Below the pieces are notes generated by a model, which searched no databases, was not told the DNA's origin, and worked only from the letters and a program-made list of their open reading frames with translations. Source: Flavobacterium ginsengisoli (lineage in GTDB: Bacteria; Bacteroidota; Bacteroidia; Flavobacteriales; Flavobacteriaceae). From it: a DNA stretch of 64,000 nucleotides. The DNA is taken from positions 5,314,501 through 5,378,500 of the forward strand of contig NZ_CP121110.1 in assembly GCF_029625315.1 (NCBI RefSeq). Reading direction: 5' to 3'. The position numbers were made by a program, and so were the translations under genes. Numbering within the stretch: position 1 is the first letter of the stretch; each line of letters starts with the position of its first letter. Of the stretch, positions 1-59,696 are shown one piece after another.

Positions 1-2856
1 CTGAAACAGTTGCTGTTGTTCCAACTTCAATTCCTCCGCTATTTTTCCAAGAGTAGTTTACTGTTCCAATTGCGTTTGTTACAGTTCCAGCCGTTACAGT
101 TCCAGTGTTTGCTCCAAAACAGAAAACATCAGTTTTGGAAGATGCGTCTAAAGCTAAAGCCGCCGCAGGCTGTCCGATTGTAACAGAATTGGATTGTGAA
201 GAACAGCTATCGGTAACAGTTAAAGTATAAGTTCCCGCAGGAAGATTTGAAACAGTTGCTGATGTTCCAACTTCAATTCCTCCGCTATTTTTCCAAGAAT
301 AGGTTACAGTTCCAATCGCGTTTGTCACAGTTCCGGCTGTTACAGAACCAGTGCTTTTTCCAAAGCAGGAAGCATCTGTTTTAGAAGATATGCCTAAAGC
401 TAAAGCCGCCACAGGCTGTCCGATTGTAACAGAATTGGATTGTGAAGAACAGCTATCGGTAACAGTTAAAGTATAAGTTCCCGCCGGAAGATTTGAAACA
501 GTTGCAGATGTTCCAACTTCAATTCCTCCGCTATTTTTCCAAGAATAGTTTACCGTTCCAATTGCGTTTGTCACAGTTCCAGCTGTTACAGAACCAGTGC
601 TTTTTCCAAAACAAGAAGCATCGGTTTTAGAAGATGTGCCTAAAGCTAAAGCCGCCGCAGGCTGTCCGATTGTAACAGAATTGGATTGTGAAGAACAGCT
701 ATCGGTAACAGTTAAAGTATAAGTTCCCGCCGGAAGATTTGAAACAGTTGCTGATGTTCCAACTTCAATTCCTCCGCTATTTTTCCAAGAATAGTTTACC
801 GTTCCAATTGCGTTTGTCACAGTTCCAGCTGTTACAGAACCAGTGCTTTTTCCAAAGCAGGAAGCATCAGTTTTAGAAGACGCGCCTAAAGCTAAGGCCG
901 CCGCAGGCTGTCCGATTGTAACAGAATTGGATTGTGAAGAACAGCTATCGGTAACAGTTAAAGTATAAGTTCCCGCCGGAAGATTTGAAACAGTTGCTGT
1001 TGTTCCAACTTCAATTCCTCCGCTATTTTTCCAAGAGTAGTTTACCGTTCCAATCGCGTTTGTCACAGTTCCAGCCGTTACAGTTCCAGTGCTTGCTCCA
1101 AAACAGAAAACATCAGTTTTAGAAGACGCGTCTATAGCTAACGCCGCTGCAGGCTGTCCGATTGTAACAGAATTGGATTGTGAAGAACAGCTATCGGTAA
1201 CAGTTAAAGTATAAGTTCCCGCCGGAAGATTTGAAACAGTTGCAGATGTTCCAACTTCAATTCCTCCGCTATTTTTCCAAGAATAGTTTACCGTTCCAAT
1301 TGCGTTTGTCACAGTTCCAGCTGTTACAGAACCAGTGCTTGCTCCAAAACAGAAAACATCAGTTTTAGAAGACGCGTCTATAGCTAACGCCGCTGCAGGC
1401 TGTCCTATTGTAACAGAATTGGATTGTGAAGAACAGCTATCGGTAACAGTTAAAGTATAAGTTCCCGCCGGAAGATTTGAAACAGTTGCAGATGTTCCAA
1501 CTTCAATTCCTCCGCTATTTTTCCAAGAATAGTTTACCGTTCCAATTGCGTTTGTCACAGTTCCAGCTGTTACAGAACCAGTGCTTTTTCCAAAACAAGA
1601 AGCATCGGTTTTAGAAGATGTGCCTAAAGCTAAAGCCGCTGCAGGCTGTCCTATTGTAACAGAATTGGATTGTGAAGAACAGCTATCGGTAACAGTTAAA
1701 GTATAAGTTCCCGCCGGAAGATTTAAAACAGTTGCAGATGTTCCAACTTCAATTCCTCCGCTATTTTTCCAAGAATAGTTTACCGTTCCAATTGCGTTTG
1801 TCACAGTTCCAGCTGTTACAGAACCAGTGCTTTTTCCAAAACAAGAAGCATCGGTTTTAGAAGATGTGCCTAAAGCTAAAGCCGCTGCAGGCTGTCCTAT
1901 TGTAACAGAATTGGATTGTGAAGAACAGCTATCGGTAACAGTTAAAGTATAAGTTCCCGCCGGAAGATTTGAAACAGTTGCAGATGTTCCAACTTCAATT
2001 CCTCCGCTATTTTTCCAAGAATAGTTTACCGTTCCAATCGCGTTTGTCACAGTTCCGGCTGTTACAGAACCTGTGCTTTTTCCAAAGCAAGAAGCATCAG
2101 TTTTAGAAGATGTGCCTAAAGTTAAAGCCGCCGCAGGCTGTCCAATTGTAACAGAATTAGATTGTGAAGAACAGGTGTCTGTAACGGTAACCGTATAAGT
2201 TCCCGCTGGAAGATTTGAAACAGTTGCAGTAGTTCCTACCACCACATTTGCACTGTTTTTCCAAGAGTAGTTTACCGTTCCAATCGCGTTTGTCACAGTT
2301 CCAGCTGTTACGCTTCCACTGCTTGCACCAAAGCAAGAGGCATCTGTTTTAGAAGACGCGCCTAAAGCTAAAGCCGCCGCAGGCTGTCCGATTGTAACAG
2401 AATTGGATTGTGAAGAACAGGTGTCTGTAACAGTCACCGTATAAGTTCCCGCTGGAAGATTTGAAACAGTTGCAGTAGTTCCTACCACCACATTTGCACT
2501 GTTTTTCCAAGAATAGGTTACAGTTCCAATCGCGTTTGTCACAGTTCCAGCCGTTACGCTTCCAGTGCTTTTTCCAAAGCAGGAAGCATCGGTTTTAGAA
2601 GATGCGCCTAAAGCTAAAGCCGCCGCAGGCTGTCCTATTGTAACAGAATTGGATTGTGAAGAGCAAGTGTCTGTAACAGTTAGCGTATAAGTTCCCGCCG
2701 GAAGATTTGAAACAGTTGCAGTAGTTCCTACCACCACATTTGCACTATTTTTCCAAGAGTAGGTTACAGTACCAATCGCATTTGTCACGGTTCCTGCCGT
2801 TACACTTCCAGTGCTTTTTCCAAAGCAGGAAGCATCGGTTTTAGAAGAAGTCTGCC
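1..2856 (-). repeat. Tandem array of 246-bp (82-residue) coding repeats, 11+ copies
   Basis: The marker sequence tgtccgattg or a near variant recurs at 171, 417, 663, 909, 1155, 1401, 1647, 1893, 2139, 2385 and 2631, always exactly 246 bp apart. Each unit is 82 codons, so the array stays open. Two subtypes are visible. Three copies nearest the N terminus (about 2140-2856) read SANVVVGTTATVSNLPAGTY. The others read SGGIEVGTSATVSNLPAGTY, or TTATVS in place of TSATVS. Near-identity between copies points to homogenisation by recombination. Such an array is also prone to assembly collapse, so the true copy number may differ. Confidence 0.95.
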
Positions 2857-4622
2857 AAAGCGAGAGCTGCTAAAGGTTGTGTAATTACAACACCATTAAC
2901 ATTTGCAGAACAACCATTTGCATCAACAACTTTAATGTCATAAGTTCCTGCTGTTAAATTTTGTAAAGTATTTGGAGTCGTACCGCCGTTTATGTAATAC
3001 GTATATGGAGCGGTTCCGTTGGTAGCTTTTATCTGAATAGTACCATCATTGCCTCCAAAACATTTTACATTAGTTTTTGTATTTAATGCAACCGTGTAAA
3101 ATGGAGGTAAAACAATAGTTGATGTTACAAAATCTCGATTGGCATACCACCAAGTATTTATCGTATTTAAATTACCATATTGTGGAGAACCATTATTGTT
3201 AGAATTAAAACCATTCCATCTGTGGCAATTACTAGGAGGAGTACTGTTAGGTGTACAACCTGTTAGGTTTACTTTGGCATCAAAAGTACCGCCAGTATAA
3301 GTAATGGCGCTGTCATCCCAGTAAAACTTTAAAACGTATCCTGATGGAGCTGCTGGTCTTACAGTTGTGCATGAAAAACCATATTGATTTTCTTCTACAT
3401 CATATATTGGGAAATGGAATGCAGCCTGCCCAAATGTAACGACAATAGGTATATTTGTTCCTTGTGCGATAGTGTTTCCCAAACCATCTTTTCCGTTCCA
3501 AGGAACACTTACGGCATAAGGAGGAGCGCCTGATGCAGTAACAGTTTGAGTTGTCAAGACATCTTTGGTTCCTGGAGTATAAATTCCGTCTCCGCCATTA
3601 AAATCAAGAAGTATTTCAATTGTTCCGCTTTTAAAAACGCTGATATTGATATTACTTTCACCAATACCACAGTTTGTGATTCCGTTAATGACTATGTTGC
3701 CGTTGTAAGTTCCGTTTTTCCAGACATTAATATCAGGATCGTTTAAGAAAACCTCATACTTCGGACTCATTTTTGTGGCATCAGAAGCATTGTAAACGCT
3801 TTTTTGATCATTTGCAGCATTTCCTGAATTTCCCGGACCTGTATTGTTAAAAGCAACATTGAAGTACCATGGTCTAAAACCTGCACCATTGAAATTGATT
3901 TTATTAACAAAACCATTTTGAGTAGTAGCTCCAGTTGTAGAGCCATTGTCGGGAGCAAAAACATAGAAAGCTCCTGTAAAATCGGTGGTAACATTGTTCA
4001 TGGCAAAAGCCCAACGTTTTGAATAAAGACGACCTGGAATTGAATTTTTAGTACTGTTGTTAGCTACAGTTATATCATAATAATTATAATAAAGTTCAGA
4101 GTAGTTTGAACTGTTGCTTTCAAATTCAATCCAGTAATCACCAGCAGGCATACCTGTTGGATCAAATACAATAGGAACATAACCAGCAGTAGTAACTCCA
4201 TCGACTCCATTCGGACCATTTTGGGCTCTTGAAAGGCGTTGAGCTTCAGTACCTGTTATGTTTGCTGTAATACTGGTCAAATTATAACTAGCAAAAGCAA
4301 CCGTACCGTCAGGTTTCATAATTCTGAATTTAGAATCTATTTCGTTGCTGTTATCTGGTGCAGTTCTTCTGGCTCTAGTAAAACCTAAGTACACCTTTTC
4401 GCTATTTGGATTTTGAATTCTAATGTAAAGCCTTTGTTCATTGGTTGAACCATATCGGGCAAAATTTCCGTATTCATCATTATTTATGCAAAGAGAAGCT
4501 CTATGATTAACATCTGGAGTTGTTTGCTTAGAACCTTCGCCAGCATAAATATTGATGCATAAAGTGCTCAATACAAGGCTTAAAAGAATTTGTAAATTGA
4601 TCTTAAATGTAAAGTTTTTCAT
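1..4622 (-). CDS. Giant SprB-repeat surface adhesin, frame broken near 2850, 3' end beyond window
   Basis: The N-terminal 593 codons (2841-4622) begin with a signal peptide (MKNFTFKINLQILLSLVLS), followed by about 480 residues of beta-rich secreted sequence and then one SprB-type repeat containing NVKCFGGNDGTI and AGTYDIKVVDANGC. The reading then hits TAA at 2841, but the neighbouring minus-strand frame is open from there to base 1. It encodes further repeats with the core TDASCFGKSTGSV, WKNS and NLPAGTYTLTVTD. Replacing GCAGAC (plus strand 2850-2855) by GCAGC joins both parts as ALAASSKTD. SprB-like proteins of flavobacteria are exported by the type IX system and act in gliding or attachment. 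That role, and a C-terminal sorting domain beyond the window, are inferred. The repeat part contains no Met codon, so a start-based gene finder would miss it. The secreted gene 4708-5289 lies 85 bp upstream on the same strand. Confidence 0.85.
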
Positions 4623-4707
4623 ATTAAATATTTTTAATATTGCTGTAATTAGAACTACGAGTAAAACGAATGACTACTACATTTGGTAGTTTAAAGCATA
4701 AAGTGTT

Positions 4708-5289
4708 TTAGAAGTCTGCGATCTTTTTAAAATCTAAGATGAAGTCGTTAAACCCAACCCCTTTTGTTTTTTTTGGAGGGACATAGGTGTAAACAATAGT
4801 TTGGCTTATGCTTTGAGGACAAGTAGAAGATGTTGCAATGATTTTAGTCCCATTCCATTGATCAAGCTGACTAAGATCTCTTGGATTAAGCTTTATGTAA
4901 AATTCTTTGCTTTCTCCTGGAGCAAGAGTAATGGTTTTGTTTTCCAGTCTATTAGTGAATAAAACATTACTTTTTGAAGAGCTTCCATCTGGATTTTCAT
5001 TGAAGTCTGAAAAATTATCCGCAGATAATTGATAAGTATCTGTTGCGTTTCCAGTATTTTTAATTTGAAGCACAAAGGAAGTTTCTGCACCTGTAAATTT
5101 TTGCTCATTTGATCCATCAATAGTGATTTCCGAACCACACGAACCAGACTGAGCAAATAAAACCGTTGTAATCAAGCAGAGTAGCGACGTAAAAAAGTTC
5201 TTTTGAAAGATATTTTTTCTTTGCGAAAAAATAATCTTACAATTGCTTACAAATTTCACCGCTTTTTCAAGAGTAGATTTAGTTTTCAT
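4708..5289 (-). CDS. Secreted protein of unknown function upstream of the adhesin
   Basis: The 193-residue product has a long basic N terminus followed by a hydrophobic export segment (FFTSLLCLITTVLFAQSGS), which suggests a signal peptide cleaved near residue 47. The mature part is rich in Ser, Thr, Asn and Asp. It carries a beta-sandwich-like stretch (TSFVLQIKNTGNATDTYQL, then TITLAPGESKEFYIKLNP) resembling domains that bring extra Ig-like strands to surface proteins. An internal start at residue 23 or later is possible, because the first residues are not typical of a signal peptide. The gene lies 85 bp upstream of the SprB-repeat gene on the same strand, so co-expression and a role at the same surface structure are likely but unproven. 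I cannot name a family. Confidence 0.75.
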   Translation of the reverse strand: MKTKSTLEKAVKFVSNCKIIFSQRKNIFQKNFFTSLLCLITTVLFAQSGSCGSEITIDGSNEQKFTGAETSFVLQIKNTGNATDTYQLSADNFSDFNENPDGSSSKSNVLFTNRLENKTITLAPGESKEFYIKLNPRDLSQLDQWNGTKIIATSSTCPQSISQTIVYTYVPPKKTKGVGFNDFILDFKKIADF

Positions 5290-6278: not shown

Positions 6279-8360
6279 GTGTACGAACAGAAATATATCG
6301 ATAGAGAAAAAAGCTGGTTAGCGTTTAATGCAAGAGTACTTCAAGAAGCTGCAGATAGTACAGTGCCACTTTTAGACAGACTGCGTTTTGTTGGAATTTT
6401 TTCAAACAATTTAGACGAATTTTTTAGAGTTCGATATGCAGCCATTCGGCGATTAAGCCTCTCGGGTATTTCTGGCGAAAAATATTTAGGAGGTATTTCT
6501 GCCCACCAATTAATTAAAGATATTACCGAAATTGTAATTCAGCAAGCAATCTGAAAGTTTGCGTATACTTAGTAATATTGAAGCCGAACTCGAATCTGAG
6601 AATATTTTTATTATAAACGAAACGCAAATTACGCCAAAACAAGAGTGTTTCTTAAAAGACTTTTATACTCAAAAATTAAGTCCAGAACTGGTAACGATTA
6701 TCCTAAATGATTTAGCAGTTTTTCCAATTTTAAAAGATACGTTAGGTTATTTGGCAGTTCGTTTAGAATTAGCTAATGACGAGGTTCGTTATGCCTTAAT
6801 CGAAATTCCAAAAAATATTAACAGATTTGTCGTTCTTCCGTCTGAAGACGAAAAACAATATGTTATTTTAATTGATGATGTCATTCGTTTCAAGCTGAAA
6901 AACATCTTTAATATATTCGATTATAAGAGTGTTTCTGCTCACATGATTAAAATTACACGTGACGCACAATTGGACATTGACAGTGATTTGAGTAAAAGTA
7001 TGCTTGAAAAAATCGCTACATCTGTAAAAGACCGTCGTATAGGAGAACCTGTTCGTTTTATTTACGATAATTTAATTGAAGATGATACAGCTGCAATTTT
7101 TCTTAGATAAAATGAAAATTGTAGAAACAGATAGTATAATTCCTGGAGGAAGATATCATAATCGCCGTGATTATATGAGTTTTCCAAACTTAGGACGTTA
7201 CGATTTATTGTATAAGCCAAATGAGCCTATGCCGGTTCCTGGTTTAAGCTTAGAAGGCAGTATTTTAGAAAAAATCAGCAAAAAAGATTATTTAGTTCAT
7301 GCGCCCTATCAGTCTTTTTCTTATTTAACCAAATTTTTGCGAGAAGCGGCTTTAGATCCTAAAGTAACAAGTATCAAAATAACTTTATATCGTTTAGCTA
7401 AAAACTCGCAAGTAATTAGCTCTTTAATAAATGCTTGCTAAAAATGGTAAAAGAGTAGTGGTACAAATCGAACTTCAAGCCCGTTTTGATGAAGCTTCAA
7501 ATATTTCGTATGCCGAACAAATGCAAATGGAAGGAATTGAACTTATTTTTGGAATGAAAGGTCTTAAAGTACATAGTAAAATATGTGTAATAGAAAGATT
7601 GGAAGAAGGTAAAAATCGTCGTTATGGATTTATTTCTACAGGAAACTTCAACGAGTCGACTGCTAAAATCTATACAGACGTAACGCTTTTAACCTGTCAC
7701 CAAGGAATTTTAAAAGACACTTCAAAAATATTTGAGTTTTTCGATATCAATTACAGAGTGCATCGATATAAGCATTTAATCGTATCGCCTCATTATACAA
7801 GAACCAAATTTATAAAACTGATTGATCGCGAAATTCTTCATGCGCTTGCAGGCAGAAAAACGCACATAAAGTTAAAAATGAATAGTTTATCTGATTTTAA
7901 AATGATTGATAAATTATACGAAGCAAGCAATGCAGGAGTAAAAATTCAGCTTCAAGTAAGAGGAATTTGCTCTTTAATTCCTGGAATTCCTGGAATGAGC
8001 GAAAATATTGAAGCAATAAGTATTGTAGATAATTACTTAGAACATTCGAGAGTATATATTTTTGGAAATGCTGGTTTAACCGAAGTTTATATTTCATCTG
8101 CCGATTTTATGACTAGAAACCTAGATGCAAGGGTAGAAGTAACATGTCCGATTTATGATCTTGAAATTAAAAAAGAACTAATCGATAACTTCAATATTGG
8201 TTGGAAAGGAAATGTAAAAGTAAGGTATCATTCTTATAAATTAGATAATAAATATAAGCCAAAAAATCATCATGCCCCATTTAGAGCACAGTTTGAGACC
8301 TATAAGTATTATCAAAATAAAGTAGCAATACTAGATGAGGTTCCTCAAAAAGTAAATTAA
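6279..8360 (+). CDS. ppk1: Polyphosphate kinase 1 (frame broken at three places)
   Basis: PPK1 makes polyphosphate from the terminal phosphate of ATP, through a phosphohistidine intermediate. Four fragments in changing frames align end to end with one PPK1: SWLAFNARVLQEAAD near the start, IPGGRYHNRRDYMSFPNLG centrally, then GLKVHSKICVIER and FISTGNFNESTAKIYTD in the catalytic domains. Removing one base at each of about 6545 (GCAAGC), 7090 (acaGCTGC) and 7435 (GCTTGC) gives a continuous protein of about 692 residues, normal for the family. The GTG start at 6279 is 5 bp after the upstream stop. Three single-base gains at GCAGC/GCTGC-like sites suggest sequence error and not gene loss. ppx follows 28 bp downstream. 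Confidence 0.92.
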
Positions 8361-11122: not shown

Positions 11123-12879
11123 TTAAAGATTTATATCCAATCCAAATGTAGTACGCAAAAGTTCTATATTTGGATTGATTTCTAAGAAACGATTGTATCG
11201 ATCTTGATCGTTAAGAGCTCTTACTGCTTTAATCTCTTCGTTTACAATTACTTCAATTGTAATATCATGATTATGTAAGTGACCTTTTAAATGTCCTAAT
11301 AAACCATTCATCTGCCCCTCAAAATCCAATTTAGAACCTTCATTTGGCAGTTCATAAGAAATTGTTGTGCCATTCAGAACAGGATCGCTAATCAATAGAA
11401 TCGATTCCATAATCTTAAGGCCTTTTTGTCCTAAACGTTCCGCATATTTGTTCCAGTGTAGGCGCATATCGGTTTCGTTAAATTCTTCAGTTAAATAAGC
11501 AGTGGTAGGTTTAACATACGTCTTGCCGCTGGCTTCCATTTCTTTTTTCTTGCGGATACTAGCAAGAGAAAAAGCAGAAACCTTAGGAGCGCCGTTTGAT
11601 TCTGTTGTTGGAGCTTCTGGAGTCTGAACTTTTGGAGTTTCTGCAACTTGTTGTGGTTGAGAAACAGAAGTTTGGTTTTCTGTTACAGCTGGAGAAGTTT
11701 GATTCTCAGTTGCTACAGAACTTTCTATTTTGGACTTTGGACTTTGGACTTCAACAATAGAATAGCCTCCGTTTTTAAAGTAAACGGGTGGAATTATGAA
11801 TTGCTCAACTTTTTTTTTCTCCATCAAAGTTGATAGAGGCTAATTGCATCAAGCATAATTCAACTAAAAGTCGTTGATTCTGGCTTAATTTGTATTTTAA
11901 ATCGCAGTCGTTTGCAATGTCAATTCCTTTTAATAAAAACTCCTGAGAACATTTTTGAGATTGAACTGCATACATTTGCTGTGCTTGTTCTCCAACTTCT
12001 AATAAAGCAATAGTTGAGGGCGTTTTGCTTACTAGCAAATCTCTAAAATGAGAAGCTAAACCAGCAATAAAATGATGTCCGTCAAAACCTTTAGCAAGAA
12101 TGTCATTGTAAGCTAATAAAAGCTTTGGAATTTCATTTTCTAAAAGTAAATCAGTAATAGAAATATAAGTCTCGTAATCTAAAACGTTTAAGTTTTCAGT
12201 GACGGCTTGACGTGTTAAATTTGTTCCACAGTATGAAACTACACGGTCAAAAATAGACAAAGCATCACGCATCGCACCATCTGCTTTTTGAGCAATGATG
12301 TGTAAAGCATCGTCTTCAAAAACGATTCCTTGACTTTCAGCAACATCTGCTAAATGTTCTTTAGCATCTTTTACTGTAATTCTTTTGAAATCAAAAATTT
12401 GGCAACGGGATAAAATCGTTGGAAGGATTTTATGTTTTTCTGTTGTTGCCAAAATAAAAATAGCATGTTTTGGCGGTTCTTCTAACGTTTTAAGAAAAGC
12501 GTTAAAAGCGGCCGAAGACAACATATGAACCTCGTCAATAATATATACTTTGTATTGTCCTGTTTGTGGCGGTATTCTAACCTGATCGATAAGGTTACGA
12601 ATATCATCTACAGAGTTGTTTGAAGCAAGCATCTAGTTCAAAAACGTTAAATGCAAAATCTTCGGTAGGATCATCATATCCAGGCTGGTTTATTTTTCGA
12701 GCCAAAATACGAGCACATGTAGTTTTACCAACTCCACGTGGTCCTGTAAATAAAAGAGCAGAAGCTAAGTGATTGGTTTCAATGGCATTCAACAAAGTGT
12801 TGGTAATGGCCTTTTGTCCCACAACATCCTTAAAGGTCTGCGGGCGATATTTACGTGCCGATACTACAAATTGTTCCAT
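11123..12879 (-). CDS. dnaX: DNA polymerase III subunit gamma/tau (frame broken at two places)
   Basis: DnaX is the ATPase motor of the sliding-clamp loader. Three fragments lie in order: an N-terminal piece (FVVSARKYRPQTFKDVVGQ, Walker A GPRGVGKTT), an AAA+ piece (YIIDEVHMLS, SRC motif ILSRCQIFDF, then the domain III helices), and a tau-like C-terminal piece starting KKKVEQFIIPPVYFKNGG. The first break is GCAAGC at 12625-12630 (original GCAGC gives FELDAASNNSVDD). The second is an A9 run on the coding strand (11810-11818). With eight A the protein reads GEKKVEQFI and totals about 584 residues. With nine it stops just after domain III, near 360 residues, like a gamma subunit. The usual zinc-binding cysteines after Walker A are absent. 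Confidence 0.92.
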
Positions 12880-15623: not shown

Positions 15624-16872
15624 ATGAATACTGCCACTCCAAATCCTTCTTCGCAATCTAAAAAAAACCTTTTTAGGACTGTTGTAACCAATCTTACATT
15701 TTGGGTTTTAATTGCCATTATTTGTGGTATCTTGTTAGGACATTTTTCTCCTGCGAATAGTGTGAAAATGGAATTTCTTGGCAAGAAGTTTATTCAGCTT
15801 ATTTCTCTTTTTATTGGACCAATTATTTTCTTGACCATAGTTTTGGGAATTTCAGGAATGGGAAACCTAAAGAAAGTGGGACGAATTGGCGTAAAAGCTT
15901 TAACTTATTTTGAAGTAGTTTCTACAGTCGCTCTTGCAATTGGAGTTGCTGTTGCTTATATATTTAAACCTGGAAAAATTGATAAATCGGGTTTGACGTT
16001 TGGAGATGCAAGCCAATATACAAATGGAGCAGACGAAGGATTTTTCTTGGTTGCAATTCTTTTTATCCAATTTTACTTTACAGGTTTTACTTGCCGCTAT
16101 TATTTGCGGAATTGCTTTGAATTTTTATCAAAAAAGGGAGCAAACTATTTTGGTTTTAGAACGATTCTCAAAAGTGGTTTTCTTTTGCTTAAAATATGTA
16201 ATGTATCTTGCTCCAATTGGTGCTTTTGGCGGAATGGCTTACACTATTGGTAAATTTGGTTTAGCAACTTTGATTCCGCTTGGAAAGTTGATGCTTTGCG
16301 TTTATTTGACGATGGCACTTTTTGTCTTTTTTGTTCTAGGAAGTATCTTGAGATATTATAAAATAAATATTCTTTCTATTTTAAAATATATTAAAGAAGA
16401 ACTTTTACTAGTGTTAGGAACTTCATCTTCTGAAGCGGCTTTACCAAGTATTATGGTAAAATTGGAAAGAATGGGCTGCAGTAAATCGGTTGTAGGATTG
16501 GTGATTCCGACGGGATATTCTTTTAATCTCGACGGAACTTCGATTTATCTTTCAATGTCGGTACTGTTTATTGCACAATTGTATGATGTTCATTTGAGCT
16601 TTTTCGAAATTATGACCGTTATCGGAATTTTGATGATTACTTCGAAAGGCGCGGCGGGCGTAACAGGAAGCGGATTTATTGTTTTAGCATCAACTTTAAC
16701 CGCTTTACATAAAATTCCAGTTGAAGGTTTGGCATTTTTGCTGGGTGTAGACAAATTTATGAGTGAAGCCAGAGCGATTACCAATTTAATTGGAAACACA
16801 GTCGCAACCATAATAATATCTAAAACAGAAAGAGATTTTACAGAGTTGAATCTGGATCCTGTCTCAGAATAG
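15624..16872 (+). CDS. Dicarboxylate/amino-acid:cation symporter (frame broken near 16068)
   Basis: The protein belongs to the DAACS family (GltP/DctA/GLT-1), which takes up dicarboxylates or glutamate with sodium or protons. The N-terminal fragment holds the first membrane helices (TFWVLIAIICGILLGHFSPA, then PIIFLTIVLGISGMG). The second fragment holds the signature core: LGTSSSEAALPSIM (hairpin 1), PTGYSFNLDGTSIY (helix 7), KGAAGVTGSGFIVLA (hairpin 2) and the helix 8 region with RAITNLIGN. Between them the frame shifts in the run cttttta-tccaatttt (about 16059-16073), where one base less or two more restores about 415 residues. Unlike many other breaks here it is not in a GCAGC context. The gene begins 36 bp after rnpB. 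Confidence 0.88.
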
Positions 16873-20083: not shown

Positions 20084-21019
20084 ATGTTTTCAAAGCATTT
20101 TTGCGAGCAACATAAAATCAAATTTCATAAAATGATACATACAAAAAGACTTGTAGGAGGATTATTTGCTTTCTTTTTTTTAGTGAATTGCCACGCAACT
20201 GAAATCATAAAAGAGAAGCAATATGAATTAAATATTGCTACAAAACAAAAGGCTGTTTTAATTTTATTTCCCTGCTTTCCATGCAATATAGAAAATACTA
20301 AAAACGAAGCTAAATTTCTTAAAAACTTAAAAGCCGAAGGTATAACCACATTGTTGTTGAATTACAACATGAAGCTTTATTTATCAGAGTCAGAAAAAAA
20401 AGAATACTCGTTGGCACTCAATTCAATTTTTGATCGAAATAAAATAGCAAAACAAAACATTTTTATTGGTGGTTTTTCTAGCGGCGGTAATTTGGCGCTT
20501 CTGCTTTCTAATTACCTTATTCAAACTAAAAATGCAATACAGCCAAAAGGTTTATTTGTGGTCGATTCTCCTTTAGATTTAGAAAGACTTTATATTGGCG
20601 CACAAGATGATGTGAAAAAAAATGTGAGTGAAGAAGCGGTTGAAGAAGGAAATTATTTAATACAACTGTTAAACAATGATCTTGGAAATCCGAGAACAAA
20701 TATTGAACCTTATAAAAAAGCATCTCCATATTTGATTTCTTGTAATTCAAAAGAAAATATAGAATACTTAAAAGATATTAAAATTAGGTTCTATTGTGAA
20801 CCAGATTTAGATTGGTATTTGACTAACAAAAATAGAACTTATGAAGAATTGAATGCCTTTCATTTAGAAAAAGCATATGATTCATTATTGAATTTAGGAG
20901 CAAAAAAAATAGAATTTATAAAGACTTCAAACAGAGGATTTGATTCGAAAGGAAATAAAAAACCGCATTCTTGGAATTTAGTTGAAAGAGAAGATCTCAT
21001 AAAATGGATTCTTAACTAA
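20084..21019 (+). CDS. Alpha/beta-hydrolase-fold lipoprotein or secreted esterase-like protein
   Basis: From the likely start at 20132 (MIHTKRLVGGLFAFFFLVNC) the product has an export signal with a lipobox-like LVNC. The nucleophile elbow GGFSSGGNLALLL is typical of alpha/beta hydrolases, and LFVVDSPLDLERLY and a late KPHSWNL could supply the acid and histidine. The substrate is unknown. The gene is divergent from a two-component system and 35 bp before a TonB-type barrel gene, so all may serve one envelope function under that system. The first 16 codons are probably not translated. Confidence 0.7.
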   Translation: MFSKHFCEQHKIKFHKMIHTKRLVGGLFAFFFLVNCHATEIIKEKQYELNIATKQKAVLILFPCFPCNIENTKNEAKFLKNLKAEGITTLLLNYNMKLYLSESEKKEYSLALNSIFDRNKIAKQNIFIGGFSSGGNLALLLSNYLIQTKNAIQPKGLFVVDSPLDLERLYIGAQDDVKKNVSEEAVEEGNYLIQLLNNDLGNPRTNIEPYKKASPYLISCNSKENIEYLKDIKIRFYCEPDLDWYLTNKNRTYEELNAFHLEKAYDSLLNLGAKKIEFIKTSNRGFDSKGNKKPHSWNLVEREDLIKWILN

Positions 21020-23224: not shown

Positions 23225-23834
23225 CTATCCTTCGTCTTCTTCGGTTTCTTTTTTAGTAATATCATCATGAGGCAATTCTTCATCATCATCGGTTGAATTT
23301 AGTTCGAAGAAACTAAAAAAAGAACCGCCGTAACTTTTCTGAAAAGAGAAATTGCTCATATGATCCAATTTGGTGTATTTTGAATGCTCGATAATCATCA
23401 TTCCATCATCTTCCAATAAATCTCTTTCGAAAACGGTTAGAACAATTTTTTCAAAAGTAGCCTGATCCAATCCGTAAGGCGGATCTGCAAAGATGATATC
23501 GTAAGTTGTTTTAGAATTTTCTAAAAATTTAAAAACATCGCTTTTCGTTGCAAGCAATATCAAAATCATATTCCGAAGAAACTTGTTTGATAAATTTAAC
23601 GCATCCAAAATCGCCATCTACAGACGTAATTGGTGCGCTTCCGCGTGAAGCAAATTCATAACTGATGTTTCCTGTTCCCGAAAAAAGATCTAAAACCTTT
23701 AAACTGTCAAAATTAAAATGGTTATTCAAAACATTAAACAATGCTTCTTTACTCATGTCAGTCGTTGGCCTTACAGGTAGATTTTTTGGCGGAAAAATTC
23801 GGCGTCCTTTGTATTTTCCTGAAATGATTCTCAT
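23225..23834 (-). CDS. rsmD: 16S rRNA (guanine966-N2)-methyltransferase RsmD (frame broken at 23552)
   Basis: RsmD methylates G966 of 16S rRNA using S-adenosylmethionine. The first fragment shows MRIISGKYKGRRIFPP and the SAM-binding DLFSGTGNISYEFASRG. The second shows the catalytic ADPPYGL and the C-terminal MMIIEHSKYT. The frame breaks at GCAAGC (23550-23555). With GCAGC the protein reads FDIAATKSDVFKF and has about 202 residues. The tail after the domain is unusually acidic (DDEELPHDD and following). The start overlaps the stop of the DUF3822 gene by 4 bp, as in other Bacteroidota. Confidence 0.93.
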
Positions 23835-30282: not shown

Positions 30283-30299
30283 GTATCTAAAATTCTTAA

Positions 30300-35945: not shown

Positions 35946-36675
35946 TTAGAAATTCGGACTTAAATCGTACTTTTTGTAGAATTTATCCAAAGCTTCAACA
36001 ACTTCGTCTTCTGTGTCTACAATTTTAAATAAATTTAAATCTTCTGGGCTTACTGTATGCATTTTTTCAACCAAAACAGTTTTAACCCATTCAATCAATC
36101 CAGACCAGAATTCAACTCCAACCAAAATGATCGGGAATTTTCCAATTTTTTTGGTTTGAATTAAAGTAATGGCTTCAAACATTTCGTCTAAAGTTCCAAA
36201 ACCTCCAGGCATAACCACAAAACCTTGCGAATATTTTACGAACATTACTTTTCTCACAAAGAAATAGTCGAAATTCAGATTTTTATCATGATCAATATAC
36301 GGGTTGAAATGCTTGCTCAAATGGAAGCTCAATATTTAAACCAACCGAAGTTCCACCACCTAAATGTGCACCTTTATTTCCAGCTTCCATAATTCCGGGA
36401 CCACCTCCTGTAATCACACCGTAACCTGCTTTACTGATTTTATAAGCAATTTTTTCTGCCAATTGATAGTATTTATCCTCTGGTTTTGTTCTCGCCGATC
36501 CAAAAATAGAAACACAAGGACCAATACGTCCCATTGCTTCGTAACCATTTACAAACTCAGACATAATCTTAAAAATTGCCCAGCTGTCATTGGTTTTTAT
36601 TTCATTCCACGTTCTTTGTTTCAAACGATCCTGAATTACTTTATCTTCATCATTATCAAAATCTTCTAATCTCAT
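35946..36675 (-). CDS. LOG family protein, TIGR00730 type (frame broken at 36313)
   Basis: The LOG fold (lysine-decarboxylase-like Rossmann) includes enzymes that release free cytokinin bases or hydrolyse nucleoside monophosphates. The two family motifs are present: GYGVITGGGPGIMEAGNKGA in the first fragment and VVMPGGFGTLDEMFEAIT (PGGxGTxxE) in the second. The break is GCTTGC on the plus strand (36311-36316). With GCTGC the junction reads ELPFEQHFNPYID and the protein has about 242 residues. The in vivo substrate in non-plant bacteria is unclear. Confidence 0.92.
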
Positions 36676-37956: not shown

Positions 37957-40787
37957 TTACTCCAACTCTTTTTTCAAAAACTTAGCCGTATAACTCTTTT
38001 TATTCTGAGCCACTTCTTCTGGAGTACCTTTGGCAACCAATTGTCCTCCGCCTTTTCCGCCTTCTGGACCAATATCGATAATATAATCAGCAAGTTTTAT
38101 AACATCCATATTATGCTCGATTACTAGAATGGTATTTCCTTTATCAACCAGTTTATTGATTACTTCCATCAAAACACGAATGTCTTCGAAGTGTAAACCT
38201 GTTGTTGGTTCGTCTAGAATATAAAATGTATTTCCAGTATCTTTTTTAGATAATTCTCCCGCCAATTTAATACGTTGCGCTTCACCGCCAGAAAGCGTTG
38301 TGCTTTGCTGACCAAGTGTAATATAACCTAAACCAACATCTTGAATGGTTTTGATTTTTCTATAAATCTTCGGAATATTTTCAAAAAACGGAACCGCTTC
38401 ATCAACCGTCATATCTAAAACATCAGAAATTGATTTTCCTTTATATCTAATTTCTAAAGTCTCTCTGTTAAAACGTTTTCCTTGGCAAGTTTCGCATTCT
38501 ACATAAACGTCTGGTAAGAAGTTCATTTCGATTGTTCTTACACCAGAACCTTCGCAAGTTTCGCAACGTCCGCCTTTTACGTTAAAACTAAAACGGCCCG
38601 CTTTGTATCCACGAATCATACTTTCAGAAGTCATGGTAAACAGATTTCTAATTTCTGTAAAAACCTCCGTATAAGTTGCTGGATTTGAACGTGGAGTTCT
38701 TCCAATCGGACTTTGGTCAATATCAATTACTTTGTCGATATGTTCTAAACCTTCAATCTTTTTGTAAGGTTGCGGTTTTTTTACGCCATTAAAATAATAT
38801 GCATTTAAAATAGGGTAAAGCGTTTCATTAATCAAAGTCGATTTTCCGCTTCCAGAAACTCCTGTAACGCAAGTCATCTTACCTAACGGAATTTCAATTG
38901 AAACGTTTTTAAGGTTGTTTCCTGTTGCTCGGTCAATTTCAAGAATTTGCCATTTCCTTTTCTTCTTTTCTTCGGAATGTCAAATTTCATTTTACCATTC
39001 AAATATTGAGCGGTAATAGTGTCTGAAGCTAAAGTTTCTTTTGGAGTTCCTATGCTGATGATTTCTCCTCCATATTTACCAGCTTTTGGTCCAATATCAA
39101 TTACATAATCAGCGGTTTCGATCATGTCTTTGTCATGTTCCACCACAATAACTGAGTTTCCGATATCGCGTAATTGTTCTAGAGAATGAATCAGTTTTTC
39201 GTTATCTCTTTGATGCAAACCAATACTTGGCTCATCCAAAATATATAAAACTCCAACCAATTGTGAACCAATTTGAGTTGCCAGACGAATACGTTGCGCT
39301 TCACCACCAGAAAGGGATTTTGAACTTCGACTTAAAGCCAAATAATTCAAACCAACATTCATCAAAAAGTTCAAACGGTCTTTGATTTCTTTTACAACTT
39401 CAGATGCAATTAAAAGCTGTTTGTCTGTCAAATGGCTATTTAAATCTTGAAACCAAGCTGTTAAATCTGAAATATCCATATCACACAATTCGGTGATATT
39501 TTTTTCATTTACCCTAAAAAATAATGCTTCTTTTTTAAGACGTGAACCATCACAAACAGGGCAATTAATTTCGTCCATGAAGTCTTTTGCCCAGCGTTTT
39601 ATGCTTGTTGTGGCACTTTCGTCATATTGATTTTTAATGAAATTAGAAATTCCTTCAAAATCGATTTTATATTCTCTTGTAACACCAAGATCTTTTGAGT
39701 TGATAGAAAACTTATCTTTTCCGCCATACAAAATCATTTGCATTGCTTCTTCGGGAATTTTCTCGATTGGATCGGTTATTTTAAAACCGAATTTTTCTCC
39801 AATAGTTTCCAATTGTTTGAAAATCCAAGACGATTTGTATTCGCCAAGCGGAGCAAAACCGCCAGCTTTTATAGATAATTTCGGATTTGGAATAATCTTC
39901 TTAACGTTGATTTCGTGCACAGTTCCCAATCCGTTGCAATGCGGACAAGCTCCTTTTGGAGAGTTAAACGAAAATAAATTCGGTTCTGGATTTTGATATG
40001 AAATTCCTGTTGTTGGGCACATTAAATTTCTACTGAAATAACGAACCTCATTAGAATCCTGATCTAAAATCATCAAGACATCTTCGCCGTGATGCATCGC
40101 AGTATTGATGCTTTCAGATAATCTTTTTTGCGTATCAGGATTGTCTTCAATCACCATTCTATCTACAACAATCTCGATATCGTGTGTTTTGTAACGATCC
40201 AGTTTCATTCCGGTAACCAAATCCTGAACGTCTCCGTTTACACGAACTTTTAAGAATCCTTGTTTGGTAATTTGTTGGAATAATTCGACGTAATGCCCTT
40301 TTCTAGCTTTAATTACTGGCGCTAGAATATTAATGCGTTTTCCGTTGTAATCCTGAATAATCAGATCTTTGATCTGTTCATCAGAATACGAAACCATTTT
40401 TTCGCCTGTGTTATAACTGTAGGCATCTGCACCACGTGCGTACAAAAGCCTTAAGAAATCGTAAATTTCAGTAATAGTTCCAACTGTAGAACGCGGACTT
40501 TTACTGGTTGTTTTTTGTTCAATTGCAATAACTGGAGAAAGTCCGTCGATTTTGTCAACGTCTGGACGCTCTAAACCGCCAAGGAATTGCCTCGCGTAAG
40601 CTGAAAAAGTTTCAACATAACGACGCTGTCCTTCGGCATAAATCGTATCAAATGCCAAAGAAGATTTTCCCGAACCTGATAAACCAGTAATTACAACCAG
40701 TTTTTCACGCGGAATAGATATATCGATATTTTTTAGATTATGAACTCTTGCACCAAGAACTTCAATAGTATTGTCTTTATCTAACAT
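37957..40787 (-). CDS. uvrA: Excinuclease ABC subunit A (frame broken near 38930)
   Basis: UvrA finds bulky DNA damage and loads UvrB in nucleotide-excision repair. Two ABC ATPase modules are visible. The first has Walker [14 protein letters not shown], zinc site [12 protein letters not shown] and signature [12 protein letters not shown]. The second has [13 protein letters not shown], zinc finger CETCEGSGV with CETCQGKRF, and [17 protein letters not shown]. The frame is lost between them, where ACCGAGCAACAGG (coding) needs one more G to read [17 protein letters not shown]. The restored length is about 943 residues. The ATG at 40785-40787 ([17 protein letters not shown]) fits the family; a longer reading to 40847 does not. 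Confidence 0.96.
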
Positions 40788-40873
40788 AATTTTGAGCAAA
40801 AACGCAAAGTTACCACTTTGATTTGTTCTTTTTGTGCTCGATAGCAAAACTTTATGTTACAATTAGTAACAAA

Positions 40874-47084: not shown

Positions 47085-47824
47085 CTATAAGCTTGTTTTT
47101 TGTAAATTTTTTGTCTGAAACCTGAATTTCATGACCAGAAGTCATTTGTAGTTTAAATTCTTCCGATTTAAATTTTTTGACATATGCGAGCATTAATCAA
47201 ATAACTTCTGTGAACTTTTAAGAAGTTTTTTTCTGATTCTAATAATTCGCAGATTTCTTTAAGGGACTTTGTAGCGCAATATTTATGATCTTTAGTATAA
47301 ATGTCGGTATAAGGACCTTCTGACTTGCAAAACAAAATTTCGTTAAGTTGAATGACGTCGAAGCCTGTTTTTGATGCAAGGGCAATTCGTTGTTTTCCTG
47401 AAGATTGGTTTTCTCTATTTTCCTTTAATAGTTGATATCTATCTAAACTATCTTTTTTTTCTAAAGCTAAATCTAGTTTACTAATGGCAGTTTTAAAATC
47501 TGGTATATGAATTGGTTTTATTAAATAGTCTAAAGCACTATTTTTAATGGCTTGCAATGCATGCTCTTTATATGCCGTTGTAAAAATAATTTCAAATGGA
47601 ATTGTGTCAAAGTAAGAAAGCAAATCAAAGCCGTTTTCACCAGGCATTTGAATATCAAGAAAAACAAGATCTGGAGATTTTTTTTTAATTGATTCTAAAG
47701 CTGAGGGAACAGAACTGCATTGTTCGACTATTTCGATTTTGTCATCATAAATTTGCTTACAGAGTGTCTCTATAAGATTTCTTGCAGACAATTCATCATC
47801 AACAATAATAGCTTTAATTTTCAT
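47068..47824 (-). CDS. LytTR-family response regulator (frame broken at 47188)
   Basis: The receiver domain has IKAIIVDDELSARNL, the phosphoacceptor Asp in VFLDIQMPGENGFD and the conserved IKPIHIPDF. The LytTR DNA-binding domain follows (RIALASKTGFDVIQLNEILF, FLKVHRSYLINA). As read, it stops early at 47168, at ICQKI. If GCTCGC (coding; plus 47186-47191) is restored to GCTGC, the protein continues AAYVKKFKSEEFKLQM to NKLIDAITK, with the stop at 47068 and about 251 residues. That end overlaps the kinase ATG by 17 bp, as expected for a coupled LytTR-LytS pair. The early stop is therefore probably not real. Confidence 0.9.
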
Positions 47825-56161: not shown

Positions 56162-56184
56162 ATTTTTCTAAAATTCCAATATTA

Positions 56185-56230
56185 AAAAATCCAAATTCCA
56201 ATTAAAACTGGAGTTTGGATTTTTTTGTTT
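56185..56230 (+). terminator. Probable terminator after the SIMPL gene
   Basis: Arms aaaaaatccaaa (56185-56196) and tttggatttttt (56215-56226) run into a T-rich tail. Confidence 0.7.
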
Positions 56231-56313
56231 TATTTTTTTCTAAAGAATTCACACAAAGCTTACTTTCCTAATGAGAATTATAATTTGGAATTTTGAGATG
56301 GCAATTTCATAAT

Positions 56314-57685
56314 CTAAAGAACTTTTATTGGAAGAGTAAATTTGAATGTACTTCCTTTACCAAGTTCACTTTCTACCCAAATTTTTCCTTGATGTATATT
56401 TACAAATTCTTTACAGAGTAACAATCCGAGTCCGCTTCCTAGTTCATTTTCTGTTCCTTTTTGCAGTACTTTTCCATTGATTTTAAAAAGCTTTTCTTTT
56501 ATACTGTCAGGAACTCCAATTCCATTATCCGTAATCGAAATTTCTACTTTTTGATTTGTCTTGATAAGCTTCACTTTTATCTCGCCGTTTTTGTCAGTAA
56601 ATTTAATCGCATTGCTAAGTAAATTTCTCAAAATAGTGCTAATCATATTTTTATCAAATTCTGCCTCAACAAGATAAGCCGATTCAAATGTAATATTGAT
56701 GTTTTTATTTAAAGCGACATTTCTGCTCAGTTCAATATTTTCCTCAATTAAAGCGTTTAGCGACGATGTTTTTAGGATGAAAAGTAATCATTCCGGTTTG
56801 AACCTTAGACCATTCTAATAGATTTTCAAGTAGCTTATAGATGTTTTTATTTGAGTCGTGCAATAGTTCTGATATTTCTTTAATTTCTTCTCGGCTGTAC
56901 TGATCGATATTTTCAAGTAAAATTTCAGAGAGAGAAACAGAAGAACCCAATGGCCCTCTTAAATCATGAGAGATTATAGAGAAGAATTGGTTCTTGTCAT
57001 TTAAAAGCTTTTTAATTTTATGATCTTGTTTTTCTTTCACCAAAAGCAAAAAGCCAACAATTCCAATTAAAGACAATAGAAATAAACAGATGCTGTATAA
57101 ACTATCAAAAGTATCGTTAGAAATAATAAGATTTTGAGGGTACAAATATCGGTGAACGGTTCGTACTGCAATTAGAATTTCAAAACCCATATAACACAAG
57201 ACATAAAAAGTCTTAAAAAAGCTTTTTTCTTTTTCTGTAAAATAAGTTATTGTAGGCAATAAATAAATGGCAAAGACTCCAATACCGCCAATAATGACGC
57301 GAGTATTCATTGTTGCATCAAAAAGTGTCGAAATATTAAATAGCAAAATGGTTGCCGTGGTAATGGCTATCTGAAAACGATAATGTTTTTTTGCATGTGT
57401 TTTAATAAGAGACAGCATAGCCAACGTTTCAAAGCAACAAGCGCCTAAAATCATAGAATTGGCAATGTTAATAGAAGCAAAATCAGGGATAATATTTCGT
57501 AAAAGAGCCAATACCCATGCAAGAGTAAGTATTAATTTCCCTAAGCCGAACCACTTTAAAGTTTTTCTATTATCGCTAGTGGCATACGAAAATGAAAAAC
57601 TAAAAATAAGGACGCAAGTAAATAAATTGCCCCAGAAGTAAAGTAGAAATATTGTTTTTGGATCTACTGGTAAGAGTTCAAACAT
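56314..57685 (-). CDS. Membrane histidine kinase (frame broken near 56768)
   Basis: The N-terminal part has six or seven membrane helices (TIFLLYFWGNLFTCVLIFSF through SICLFLLSLIGIVGFLLLV), then HisKA with FFSIISHDLRGPLGSSVSL. The second fragment has HATPase_c with ILRNLLSNAIKFTD, ITDNGIGVPD and LGSGLGLLLCKEF. The first part stops at 56744. Between K-N-I and L-N-A-L-I-E-E the frame differs by one base around ATCGTCGCT (coding; plus 56761-56772), where one base less would restore about 456 residues. This break is not in a GCAGC motif. No response regulator gene adjoins, so it is an orphan kinase. Confidence 0.88.
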
Positions 57686-57936: not shown

Positions 57937-58903
57937 ATGCCATTAATTGAACAATCAGAATATAATTCTCCTTCTATTCTTAATCGAAACAGGCATATAT
58001 CTACTATTTATGCTTGCACTGATAAAAAAGTTTGAAGTTCCTGAATATACAAGAGAGAAACAGGAATTAAACGACGGAGATTTTATCAATATTGATTATA
58101 TTATTGATAACCCTAAAAAAGCAGTTATTTTATGTCATGGTTTAGAGGGTGACTCACGCAGGACATATAATAATAGTTGTGCAACTTATTTTAAGCAGAA
58201 AGGTTTTTCTGTTTTTGCTTGGAACAATCGTACTTGTGGCGGAGAAATGAATCGTCTTCCGAGATTGTATCATCACGGTGCAGTTGATGATCTTGACGAA
58301 GTAGTTCAGTTTGTTTTAAGAAAAGGATTTGAAGATATTTATTTAATCGGATATTCGATGGGAGGTGTTCAATTGCTTAATTATTTAGGTTGGACAAAAA
58401 TCGACGAACGCATAAAAGCGGCAGTTTCTATTTCGGTTCCAACACATATCGCGACCAGTGCAGAAGTTCTTAAGCAAGGCTTTAATAGAGTTTATCTAAA
58501 GAATTTTACGATTGATATTAAAAAGAAACTAAAATACAAAGCGACTCAATTTCCTGATTTTATCAACCGCGATCAAATAGATAAAATTACTTCTTTTGAT
58601 GAAGTAGATCAATATTTTACTGCGCCATTACATGGTTTTGCAAGTAAAGACGATTATTATCATCGTGTTTCTCCAGAGTTTTCACTAAAAGATATTACGA
58701 CACCAGTTTTAATTATTAATTCGCTCGACGATCCTTTTCTGGGAGAAAGATGTTATCCGAGATCTATTGCTAAGGATAGTGCTTATGTTTATCTAGAAAC
58801 TCCAAAATATGGCGGACATTGTGCTTTTCCGCTTCGAGATTCTACGTATTCTTATGCAGAGAAAAGGGCTTTTGAGTTTTTTGAGTCCTGCAAACAATGC
58901 TAA
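57937..58903 (+). CDS. YheT-family alpha/beta hydrolase (frame broken at 58014)
   Basis: The true start is probably the ATG at 57937 (MPLIEQSEYNSPSILNRN, then RHISTIYA), which matches the YheT N terminus. It runs out of frame at GCTTGC (58012-58017). With GCTGC it continues YAALIKKFEVPEYTREK into the open frame that ends at 58903. Motifs are the oxyanion HGLEGDSRRTYN, the nucleophile elbow GYSMGGVQLLNYLG, the acid in NSLDDPFLG and the late GGHCAF histidine. The restored length is about 321 residues. The family comprises putative carboxylesterases of unknown substrate. The hydrophobic start of the shorter reading (NIILLLFLIETGIYLLFMLA) is an out-of-frame product and not a real membrane anchor. 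Confidence 0.88.
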
Positions 58904-58926: not shown

Positions 58927-59696
58927 TCATTCATCGCCAGAATTCTCAATCTCTGAAGGTGCTTTTTTTCTAATACTGGTACTTAGATAAAAAAACAATC
59001 TTATCGTATGATTCATATCGTATTGATATCCAGAGTATTTTTGTTGATATACATTCATGTAGCCAAAATCATAACTCCATTTTGGATTGATATTTTTTTT
59101 AATCCCAACAAAAAAACGATTTTGGTCAAATGTGTTGTAAATAACTTCCTCTCCAAAATGCAGAGCAAAATCTCATCAGAAAGAACCATTTGTGGCCATG
59201 ATTTTTTATCGGAAATTCGGAAAGTAAAACTCATCAGATAGCGAATTCTGTTGGTAAATCGCCAATCTCCACTAGGTTTATCATTAACTATTTTTTCCTG
59301 CCAGCGCTGTTCATTCCGTAAGCGCCGCAGAATGCTTATATTTCCAAATTTTGTGTTTAACTGCGCTTGCTGGTAAATTCTGTTTTCATCTGCGAAAGTA
59401 CTCCAGTCTGGATTTGACGGTGCAAGCCACATATGCGCATATCCTAAATTTAAAGAAATATTTGAATTTGGAATATAACTGATACCTCCTCTTATAAAAT
59501 AAAAACTCGGATCGGCAACAAAATCATTTCGCCTGATATGAAAATCGCCAATCAAACCCCAATGGTCTGCAAATTTGGTAACCGTATTTATAGAAACCCA
59601 AGTCTGAAGCTGTTGGTTAATTTCTTTTTTCTGAGTTTGCCCTAACGCACATAGAGGAAGCAGTGAAATTAGGACTCTGATAAAATTGTTTTTCAT
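58927..59696 (-). CDS. DUF2490 family outer-membrane-like protein (frame broken at 59162)
   Basis: The product has a signal peptide (NNFIRVLISLLPLCALGQTQ) and a DUF2490 pattern: QLQTWVSINTVTKFADHWG, SFYFIRGGISYIPNSNISLN, LRNEQRWQEKI and RFTNRIRYLMSF. The frame is lost at GCTCTGC (coding; plus 59160-59166). With GCTGC it continues LLHFGEEVIYNTFDQNRF and GIKKNINPKWSYDFGYMN to the stop at 58927, giving about 255 residues. DUF2490 proteins are predicted small outer-membrane barrels of Bacteroidota without known function. Here two extra bases are needed to explain the break. Confidence 0.82.

Follow-up and report, generated by a model that had tools for sequence, protein, structure and literature searches.

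Frame breaks at GCAGC/GCTGC in a Flavobacterium genome as probable consensus errors at a modified motif, and a candidate orphan methyltransferase

Broken genes in the window

The window considered here is a 64,000-nucleotide stretch (G000:C1:5314501-5378500) of the Flavobacterium ginsengisoli genome G000, an assembly of 5.41 Mb in a single contig with a completeness of 95.5%. Many of its genes lose their reading frame by one or two bases, and the breaks cluster at the word GCAGC or its complement GCTGC (together GCWGC, W being A or T). The affected genes are collected in Table 1; among them are dnaX and rsmD, which are core genes. We argue that the motif-bound breaks are very probably errors of the consensus at a modified GCWGC and not mutations, an artefact whose biological cause is probable and can be tested.

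Two assemblies served as the main comparisons. G096 is the only same-species genome in a sample of 249 genus genomes, and the style of its contig names suggests that it was assembled from short reads; 342 kb were aligned, in pieces at 96-99% identity. G006 (contig C15) is a more distant relative with roughly 80-90% DNA identity. Alignments shorter than 800 bases or below 93% identity were dropped for the former, and those shorter than 300 bases or below 77% for the latter, as were pieces overlapping better ones. Indels longer than two bases were excluded from both comparisons and from the window counts, and events at most 20 bases from the end of a reference open reading frame (ORF) were excluded from the indel counts against G006. 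Words were considered with a minimum of 20 differing cases (5-mer asymmetry against G006), 20 copies (change rates against G096) or 15 differing cases (after masking). Frame shifts were also predicted without a reference, by a Markov model that takes the reading frame into account and had been trained on long ORFs of G000. Twenty evenly drawn stretches of G000 were used, two of them shifted to take in methyltransferase genes.

The initial annotation had listed twelve breaks at which an original GCWGC appeared to have gained bases. At 11 of the 12 the same-species genome has GCWGC within 8 bases, G000 holding one or two extra bases at 2850, 6542, 7090, 7433, 12625, 23550, 30659, 36311, 47186, 58012 and 59160; an additional substitution is present at 47186, and at 7090 the window itself retains GCWGC within 8 bases. 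The error was also said to be partial, and the five intact sites named (6348, 13488, 13822, 29479 and 53677) are unchanged in both genomes. About nineteen genes or segments had been counted as broken; the frame model gives 17 shifts for the window, of which 7 have GCAAGC, GCGAGC or GCAGAC at most 25 bases away. Where the window aligns to G096, it shows 31 indels of one or two bases. Those at GCWGC, 16 in number, are insertions throughout, and the other 15 lie off motif (4 insertions, 11 deletions). Family models run on the pieces agree with the names ppk1, dnaX, rsmD, pyruvate dehydrogenase E1 beta and alpha, and uvrA, and also match dctA; many matches fall below the curated cut-off, as expected of fragments. 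The break in uvrA, which lies off the motif, could be a leftover error of the usual long-read kind, or it could be genuine.

Table 1. Broken genes of the window and one unaffected site (window positions)
Feature	Position	Strand	Break and family evidence
SprB-repeat protein fragment	2841..4622	-	extra base ~2851; GCWGC in G096; Pfam SprB
fn3_5-domain fragment	4708..5289	-	extra base ~4715; GCWGC in G096; Pfam fn3_5
Unaffected GCWGC site	6343..6353		identical in G096
ppk1 (polyphosphate kinase 1), pieces	6540..8360	+	extra bases ~6545, ~7089, ~7436; GCWGC in G096 at each; TIGR03705 matches two of the pieces (118 and 370 bits), under cut-off 466
dnaX, piece	11805..12632	-	extra base ~12627; GCWGC in G096; TIGR02397 above cut-off; second break off motif, one base missing from a run of T near 11819 vs G006
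dctA-like transporter, two pieces	15624..16872	+	extra base ~16033; GCWGC in G096 and G006; NCBIfam DctA on both pieces, under cut-off
ORF without family match at limits used	20084..21019	+	extra base ~20105; GCWGC in G096
rsmD, two overlapping ORFs	23225..23834	-	extra base ~23552; GCWGC in G096; TIGR00095 on 23529-23834, under cut-off (this ORF alone scanned)
Pyruvate dehydrogenase E1 (alpha and beta parts), pieces	30430..32717	-	extra bases ~30436, ~30661 (GCWGC in G096); extra base ~31394 without GCWGC in G096; alpha and beta models under cut-off
TIGR00730-like protein, two ORFs	35946..36675	-	extra base ~36313; GCWGC in G096; TIGR00730 on 36292-36675, under cut-off (this ORF alone scanned)
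uvrA, two pieces	37957..40847	-	break off GCWGC, one-base deletion near 38932 vs G006, missing from GCWGC list; NCBIfam UvrA on both pieces
LytR/BtsR-like response regulator	47168..47824	-	extra base ~47188; GCWGC in G096; NCBIfam PRK11697 under cut-off
Sensor histidine kinase	56744..57685	-	extra base ~56765; GCWGC in G096; HisKA
Alpha/beta hydrolase (PRK10985-like)	57947..58903	+	extra base ~58015; GCWGC in G096; NCBIfam under cut-off
DUF2490 protein	59055..59696	-	two extra bases ~59164; GCWGC in G096; PF10677

Changes at GCAGC/GCTGC against the same-species genome

Across the aligned 342 kb, 244 of the 457 GCAGC/GCTGC sites of G096 read differently in G000, compared with an average 5-mer change rate of 6%. 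In the reverse direction, 20 of 233 GCAGC sites of G000 differ in G096, and the density of GCAGC per 10 kb is 8.0 in G000, 13.3 in G096 and 14.8 in G006. A changed GCAGC most commonly appears as GCGAC (80), GCGGC (27), GCAAGC (26), GCGAGC (25), GCAAC (22) or GCAGAC (18). Length is altered at 81 of the 244 changed sites; counting gaps next to intact sites as well brings this to 86. The motif-bound indels first noticed are present, but substitutions are the larger class of error; about two thirds of the changes keep the length, which is why a frame-based reading missed them. The base following GCAGC matters for the length changes, which affect 60/204 sites before A, 17/134 before T, 3/61 before G and 1/58 before C. 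Where the middle base is C or G (GCSGC), 25 of 165 sites are changed and 3 of 165 in length, against 244/457 and 86/457 for GCWGC counted likewise; the 25 of 165 exceeds the 6% average. Methylated CpG in GCGGC may perhaps be known to base-callers, and few errors at GCSGC are compatible with methylation there.

Seen from the side of the indels, 81 of 167 one- or two-base insertions lie at GCWGC, against a background of 1.05%. They comprise 78 of the 144 one-base and 3 of the 23 two-base insertions, and 7 of the 126 deletions are found there too. Indels away from GCWGC coexist with these (86/167 insertions and 119/126 deletions), and base runs hold 53 of the 111 one-base deletions. Once GCWGC was masked, no other k-mer survived multiple-test correction in this comparison. 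Two words were nominally uneven outside GCWGC: GCCAC, a possible weaker error word, had 35 losses against 10 gains (P = 2.5e-4 among 500 tests), and AAAA stood at 434 vs 342 (P = 1.1e-3 among 136 tests); neither is significant when corrected.

A distant relative and a reference-free scan

Against G006 the motif is read in the relative's own letters, and therefore no circular step of removing a base and then finding the motif is involved. There are 55 frame-breaking coding events in this comparison, 37 of them isolated. Among the coding insertions of one or two bases, 9 of 32 have GCWGC within 6 bases in G006 (expected 0.40, P = 1.5e-10), as does 1 of 19 deletions. GCAGC is also the most asymmetric of 508 5-mers (P = 1.2e-6), with GCAGC>GCAAC favoured over its reverse by 20:1 and GCAGC>GCGAC by 11:0.

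For 660 kb of G000 the frame model yields 193 shifts (2.92 per 10 kb), and for 184 kb of G006 it yields 13 (0.70); the rate in G096 is 0.68 per 10 kb, against 2.8-2.9 in G000. Enrichment of the motif at frame breaks elsewhere in the genome, as the initial annotation would have it, is found: 400 kb drawn from beyond the window gave 113 predicted shifts, of which 44 are at most 25 bases from GCAAGC, GCGAGC or GCAGAC (background 3.6%, P = 1.1e-33), compared with 0 of 13 in G006 and 1 of 27 in G096. For the 76 insertion-type shifts of these 400 kb, GCAAGC was counted 20 times (expected 1.3), GCGAGC 12 (0.45) and GCAGAC 12 (1.1). These forms, already named in the initial annotation, rank first, third and sixth among 6-mers, the intervening CAAGCA, CGAGCA and AGCAGA being their shifted overlaps. 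Over the pooled 660 kb, nothing beyond A runs stands out at the deletion-type shifts, and the enriched 7-mer is GCAAGCA, counted 39 times vs 40 for GCAAGC, a first hint that the base after the motif matters.

A proposed explanation

That the breaks are consensus errors at a modified base is supported by the same-species assembly, with the motif at 11 of the 12 listed places, and by the enrichment of frame breaks elsewhere. A similar failure has been described for Listeria monocytogenes ST87. The available part of the Modpolish paper reports nanopore errors at GCAGC/GCTGC in four strains, 1,533-5,670 mismatches in five low-quality strains, and an improvement of all five after whole-genome amplification; where the word was GCAGC, in four strains, a methyltransferase particular to the lineage (the mza system) is held responsible (PMC10687267). 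The word is the same as in G000, while the phylum and the methyltransferase system are different. In addition, the platform was known for Listeria and amplification removed the errors, whereas for G000 a long-read platform is presumed; the single contig together with a completeness of 95.5% is only suggestive of native nanopore data.

We infer nanopore sequencing, methylation of the sites and the identity of the writer, and, by analogy with that case, the steps of signal and calling given below (PMC10687267). An orphan C5 methyltransferase would mark the second base of GCWGC on both strands, as described for a Prevotella enzyme (PMC5608340) and for M.BatI (PMC8936443), the modified base most likely being 5-methylcytosine at the second base of GCAGC/GCTGC. 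As native DNA passed through the pore, the mark would shift the signal, and a caller untrained for this context would emit a wrong or an extra base at positions 3-4 of GCAGC. The reads would share this bias, and hence the consensus would keep the error. About half of the sites would come out wrong, roughly two thirds of them through substitutions (chiefly GCGAC, GCGGC and GCAAC) and about one third through length changes, mostly insertions (GCAAGC, GCGAGC and GCAGAC), which would break frames mainly where A follows GCAGC.

A candidate methyltransferase beside Vsr

The genome encodes two C5 methyltransferases (PF00145). The candidate writer is a protein of 328 aa (G000:C1:4007465-4008451(-); PF00145, 285 bits) with the motifs PCQ at 74, ENV at 113 and RER at 158. 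A Vsr mismatch endonuclease (4007049-4007468, plus strand) lies tail to tail with it, the two genes overlapping by four bases, and the further neighbours look like housekeeping genes by eye. No restriction nuclease was found among the neighbouring genes examined, and therefore we call the enzyme an orphan methyltransferase and not part of a restriction-modification (R-M) system. Its closest named relative, at 99%, is the methyltransferase of Flavobacterium sp. IB48, and a homologue with at least 80% identity is present in 21 of the 249 sampled genus genomes. A relative of Vsr lies within about 1.3 kb at 32 of 34 Flavobacterium-type loci, and at 32 of 51 loci in all. The pair thus appears to be common among relatives of F. 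johnsoniae, as judged by the species names among the methyltransferase matches.

What the enzyme recognises was approached through nine plasmid and phage relatives, chosen among thousands of matched records, which are 48-54% identical to it. Beside three of them lies a nuclease of PF09504 (Bsp6I), beside four one of PF20731 (the C-terminal domain of NgoFVII, a family that we take to be kin of NgoAVII), beside one a protein of PF11645 (PD-(D/E)XK), and beside one none. Within residues 181-270, bounds that we chose ourselves for the recognition region, the candidate is 50-60% identical to all nine relatives and 21% identical to the HpaII-type enzyme of the same genome, and in eight of the nine this region matches at least as well as the first 180 residues. 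With its recognition region in common with enzymes linked to GCxGC nucleases, the candidate very likely has GCxGC as its target. For x being A or T, the errors are the only indication, since GCNGC, GCSGC and GCWGC would look alike to a comparison of recognition regions. The initial annotation had proposed a BbvI-type methyltransferase; a C5 enzyme resembling GCxGC enzymes is indeed encoded, but as an orphan beside Vsr and with its kin in the Bsp6I and NgoFVII groups, no search aimed at a BbvI nuclease or M.BbvI having been made.

The described enzymes of these groups, as far as the available parts of the papers go, read similar words: GCNGC for Bsp6I (PMC9799307), GCNGC with N4-methylcytosine by single-molecule real-time (SMRT) sequencing for a Bsp6I-like methyltransferase (PMC9465063), and GCSGC or GCWGC for the group of CglI/NgoAVII and BceSIV (PMC4267653, the available part of which does not mention NgoFVII). 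The Bsp6I- and NgoFVII-type enzymes share the recognition region with the candidate and differ in having a nuclease at their side in place of Vsr. Two further enzymes are likened to the candidate by description and not by sequence. M.BatI, an orphan C5 methyltransferase like the candidate, is reported to be specific for GCDGC and to modify the first cytosine of GCAGC and GCTGC; it also methylates one strand of GCSGC, a word with few length changes in G000 (3/165) (PMC8936443, in part). M.Pin25611FIII of Prevotella intermedia is a C5 methyltransferase from the same phylum, Bacteroidota, for which bisulfite treatment showed modification of position 2 in GCAGC and GCTGC. It is tabled as an orphan with a possible nuclease nearby according to the text, and the word Vsr does not occur in the portion of the paper available (PMC5608340).

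The candidate gene is probably the writer of the modification. A variant that overlaps with this view, in which an enzyme other than the Vsr-linked one makes the modification or in which the product is N4-methylcytosine, we consider unlikely, though it has some footing: a methyltransferase producing N4-methylcytosine at GCWGC has been reported (PMC6329791, in part), and our methyltransferase search covered four Pfam families. Within G000, PF01555 gave nothing, PF02384 gave two weak matches, which on inspection resemble PrmC and an enzyme not acting on DNA, and PF07669 gave one match at the place of PrmC and one under the cut-off. The only other C5 enzyme belongs to an HpaII-like R-M pair (G000:C1:3188408-3190731) and adjoins a PF09561 nuclease. 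As a cause of errors this HpaII-type enzyme was rejected: CCGG, which we take to be its expected site, is changed at 31/152 sites vs 19/140 in reverse and lies outside the five strongest residual 4-mers. Perhaps clear errors are lacking at CCGG because base-callers know methylated CpG.

Other assemblies

Errors at GCWGC might also arise without any modified base, for instance where the model behind an outdated pore, base-caller or polisher handles a k-mer poorly. That the next base matters so strongly is what a k-mer-based caller would be expected to show. We nevertheless regard this as very improbable, given that the errors centre on a word of methyltransferase type, with 25/165 GCSGC sites changed and 3 of them in length, that after masking no other k-mer survives correction, GCCAC being the strongest, and that a fitting methyltransferase is encoded in G000. 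Moreover, seven of the nine other assemblies compared are in one or two contigs and none of these, whose platforms are not established, carries the signature. Over the nine, with 40-400 kb scanned in each, 1 of 88 shifts lies near a motif product (against 44 of 113 in G000), and the GCGAC/GCAGC ratio is 0.20-0.49, compared with 0.87 in G000. Seven of them (G215, G117, G144, G120, G065, G010 and G030) were scanned over 40-140 kb each with the model trained on G000 and gave 0.25-1.50 shifts per 10 kb. In one or two contigs and without signature, G215, G117, G144, G120 (at 70% identity) and G065 have the methyltransferase; G010 and G030 show neither the signature nor a match to the methyltransferase at E 1e-60. 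As a separate observation, G215 (3.98 Mb in one contig) has a completeness of only 70%, while over 140 kb neither its density of GCAGC nor its rate of shifts is unusual, and it is probably incomplete rather than error-ridden.

Sequencing error or real mutation

If the changes were real mutations, arising for instance from deaminated methylcytosines or from a mutator tied to the motif, core genes such as dnaX and rsmD would truly be broken. Genes and intergenic sites are changed alike in the G096 comparison: the changed fraction of GCWGC is 228/429 in coding sequences and 16/28 between genes (P = 0.70), and length changes affect 77/429 and 4/28 (P = 0.80). The rest of the genome contrasts strongly with this. 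Off motif, G096 and G000 differ at 0.40% of first, 0.22% of second and 2.85% of third codon positions, and bases adjoining an indel are ten times less frequent in genes (0.0005) than between them (0.0049). Length changes occur at 1/22, 13/68 and 63/339 sites with the middle base at codon positions 1, 2 and 3. Against G006, GCAGC>GCAAC or GCGAC is found at 9/57 and 8/65 sites for codon positions 1 and 2, where other NNAGN contexts give 3.2% and 1.4%. Most GCWGC changes thus bear no trace of selection, and since genes and intergenic sites are changed alike, these point to consensus errors. It is true that GCAGC>GCAAC corresponds to C>T on the other strand, the direction of 5-methylcytosine deamination, with its bias of 20:1, that this change is most frequent at silent positions, and that a Vsr gene adjoins the methyltransferase. 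However, deamination yields neither insertions nor the swap of AG to GA, which is the commonest outcome (80/244). Because genes and intergenic sites are alike and non-silent positions are affected, we reject mutation as the main cause and find it scarcely credible.

Several observations weigh against reading the changes as errors at a methylated motif, or narrow its reach. The intergenic sample is small, with 28 sites. The changed fraction depends on the frame, at 9/22, 54/68 and 165/339 with the middle base at codon positions 1, 2 and 3, and the highest value, 54 of 68, is that in which base 4 falls at the silent position. Against G006 the silent third position is likewise the most changed (11/22 vs 26% in other NNAGN contexts). 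From the frame dependence together with the excess at silent positions it follows that genuine silent changes must make up part of the motif substitutions. In other assemblies carrying the gene there is no footprint specific to C/T changes at GCWGC (Mantel-Haenszel odds ratio 1.26, vs 1.62 for other changes), a negative result that tells against mutation as well; Vsr repair could hide such a footprint. A smaller deamination test (12/54 vs 180/1413) had looked suggestive, and was lost in the larger one. The methyltransferase gene is present in seven of the nine other assemblies, in one at only 70% identity, all without the signature, and therefore the gene alone does not predict errors; the pattern would fit other sequencing methods there. 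In the window, the break at 31394 had been taken for a motif case: it does have an extra base, but no GCWGC stands there in G096 and there is one further difference. Lastly, mismatches dominate in Listeria and indels are not the main problem, as far as the available part of the paper tells, whereas a third of the changes in G000 alter the length and break genes (PMC10687267). With these points counted in, we remain highly confident that the motif-bound breaks are consensus errors at modified GCWGC.

Consequences for the genome and its methylome

After subtraction of the 6% background (27 sites), 217 excess changes remain in 342 kb, which on the assumption of uniformity amounts to about 3,400 genome-wide; the 81 motif insertions correspond to about 1,300 on the same assumption. 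Annotations, pseudogene counts and trees drawn from this genome, which represents its species, are affected, with dnaX, ppk1 and rsmD read as broken, and the substitutions escape frame checks and would pass as protein variation. This would be a second and distant case of the published failure mode, in which insertions matter besides mismatches. The site statistics described in the available part of the Modpolish paper ignore gaps, and therefore such a tool might leave frame breaks like those of G000 in place (PMC10687267).

On a broader view, which we hold with no more than even confidence, the errors would be a readable footprint of a GCWGC 5-methylcytosine methylome kept by the orphan methyltransferase together with Vsr, a pair that would be fixed in Flavobacterium johnsoniae and its kin. 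If so, this is a clade-wide epigenetic mark and not a defence system, and consensus errors in deposited genomes could be mined for methyltransferase specificities without raw data. The errors also offer an inexpensive hypothesis on what this methyltransferase, common in a well-studied group, recognises. In the mostly open-access literature, as covered by titles and the starts of abstracts among the entries listed, neither the artefact in Flavobacterium nor the candidate methyltransferase had been reported.

Repeats and RNA in the window

Apart from the broken genes, the window contains a long, near-perfect intergenic hairpin at 30120-30290 (G000:C1:5344620-5344790), whose 171 bases fold at -83.5 kcal/mol (z -13.8). 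It matches 85 places in G000, both strands of one copy being counted apart, and a larger query containing it gave 85 matches in G096, nearly all at the repeat; it belongs to a dispersed palindromic repeat family. Stretches near 56155-56240 and 52134-52210 match many places in G004, G006 and G008. A Flavo-1 RNA (Rfam RF01705, 78.2 bits) lies on the minus strand at 36724-36799, upstream of the broken TIGR00730-like gene.

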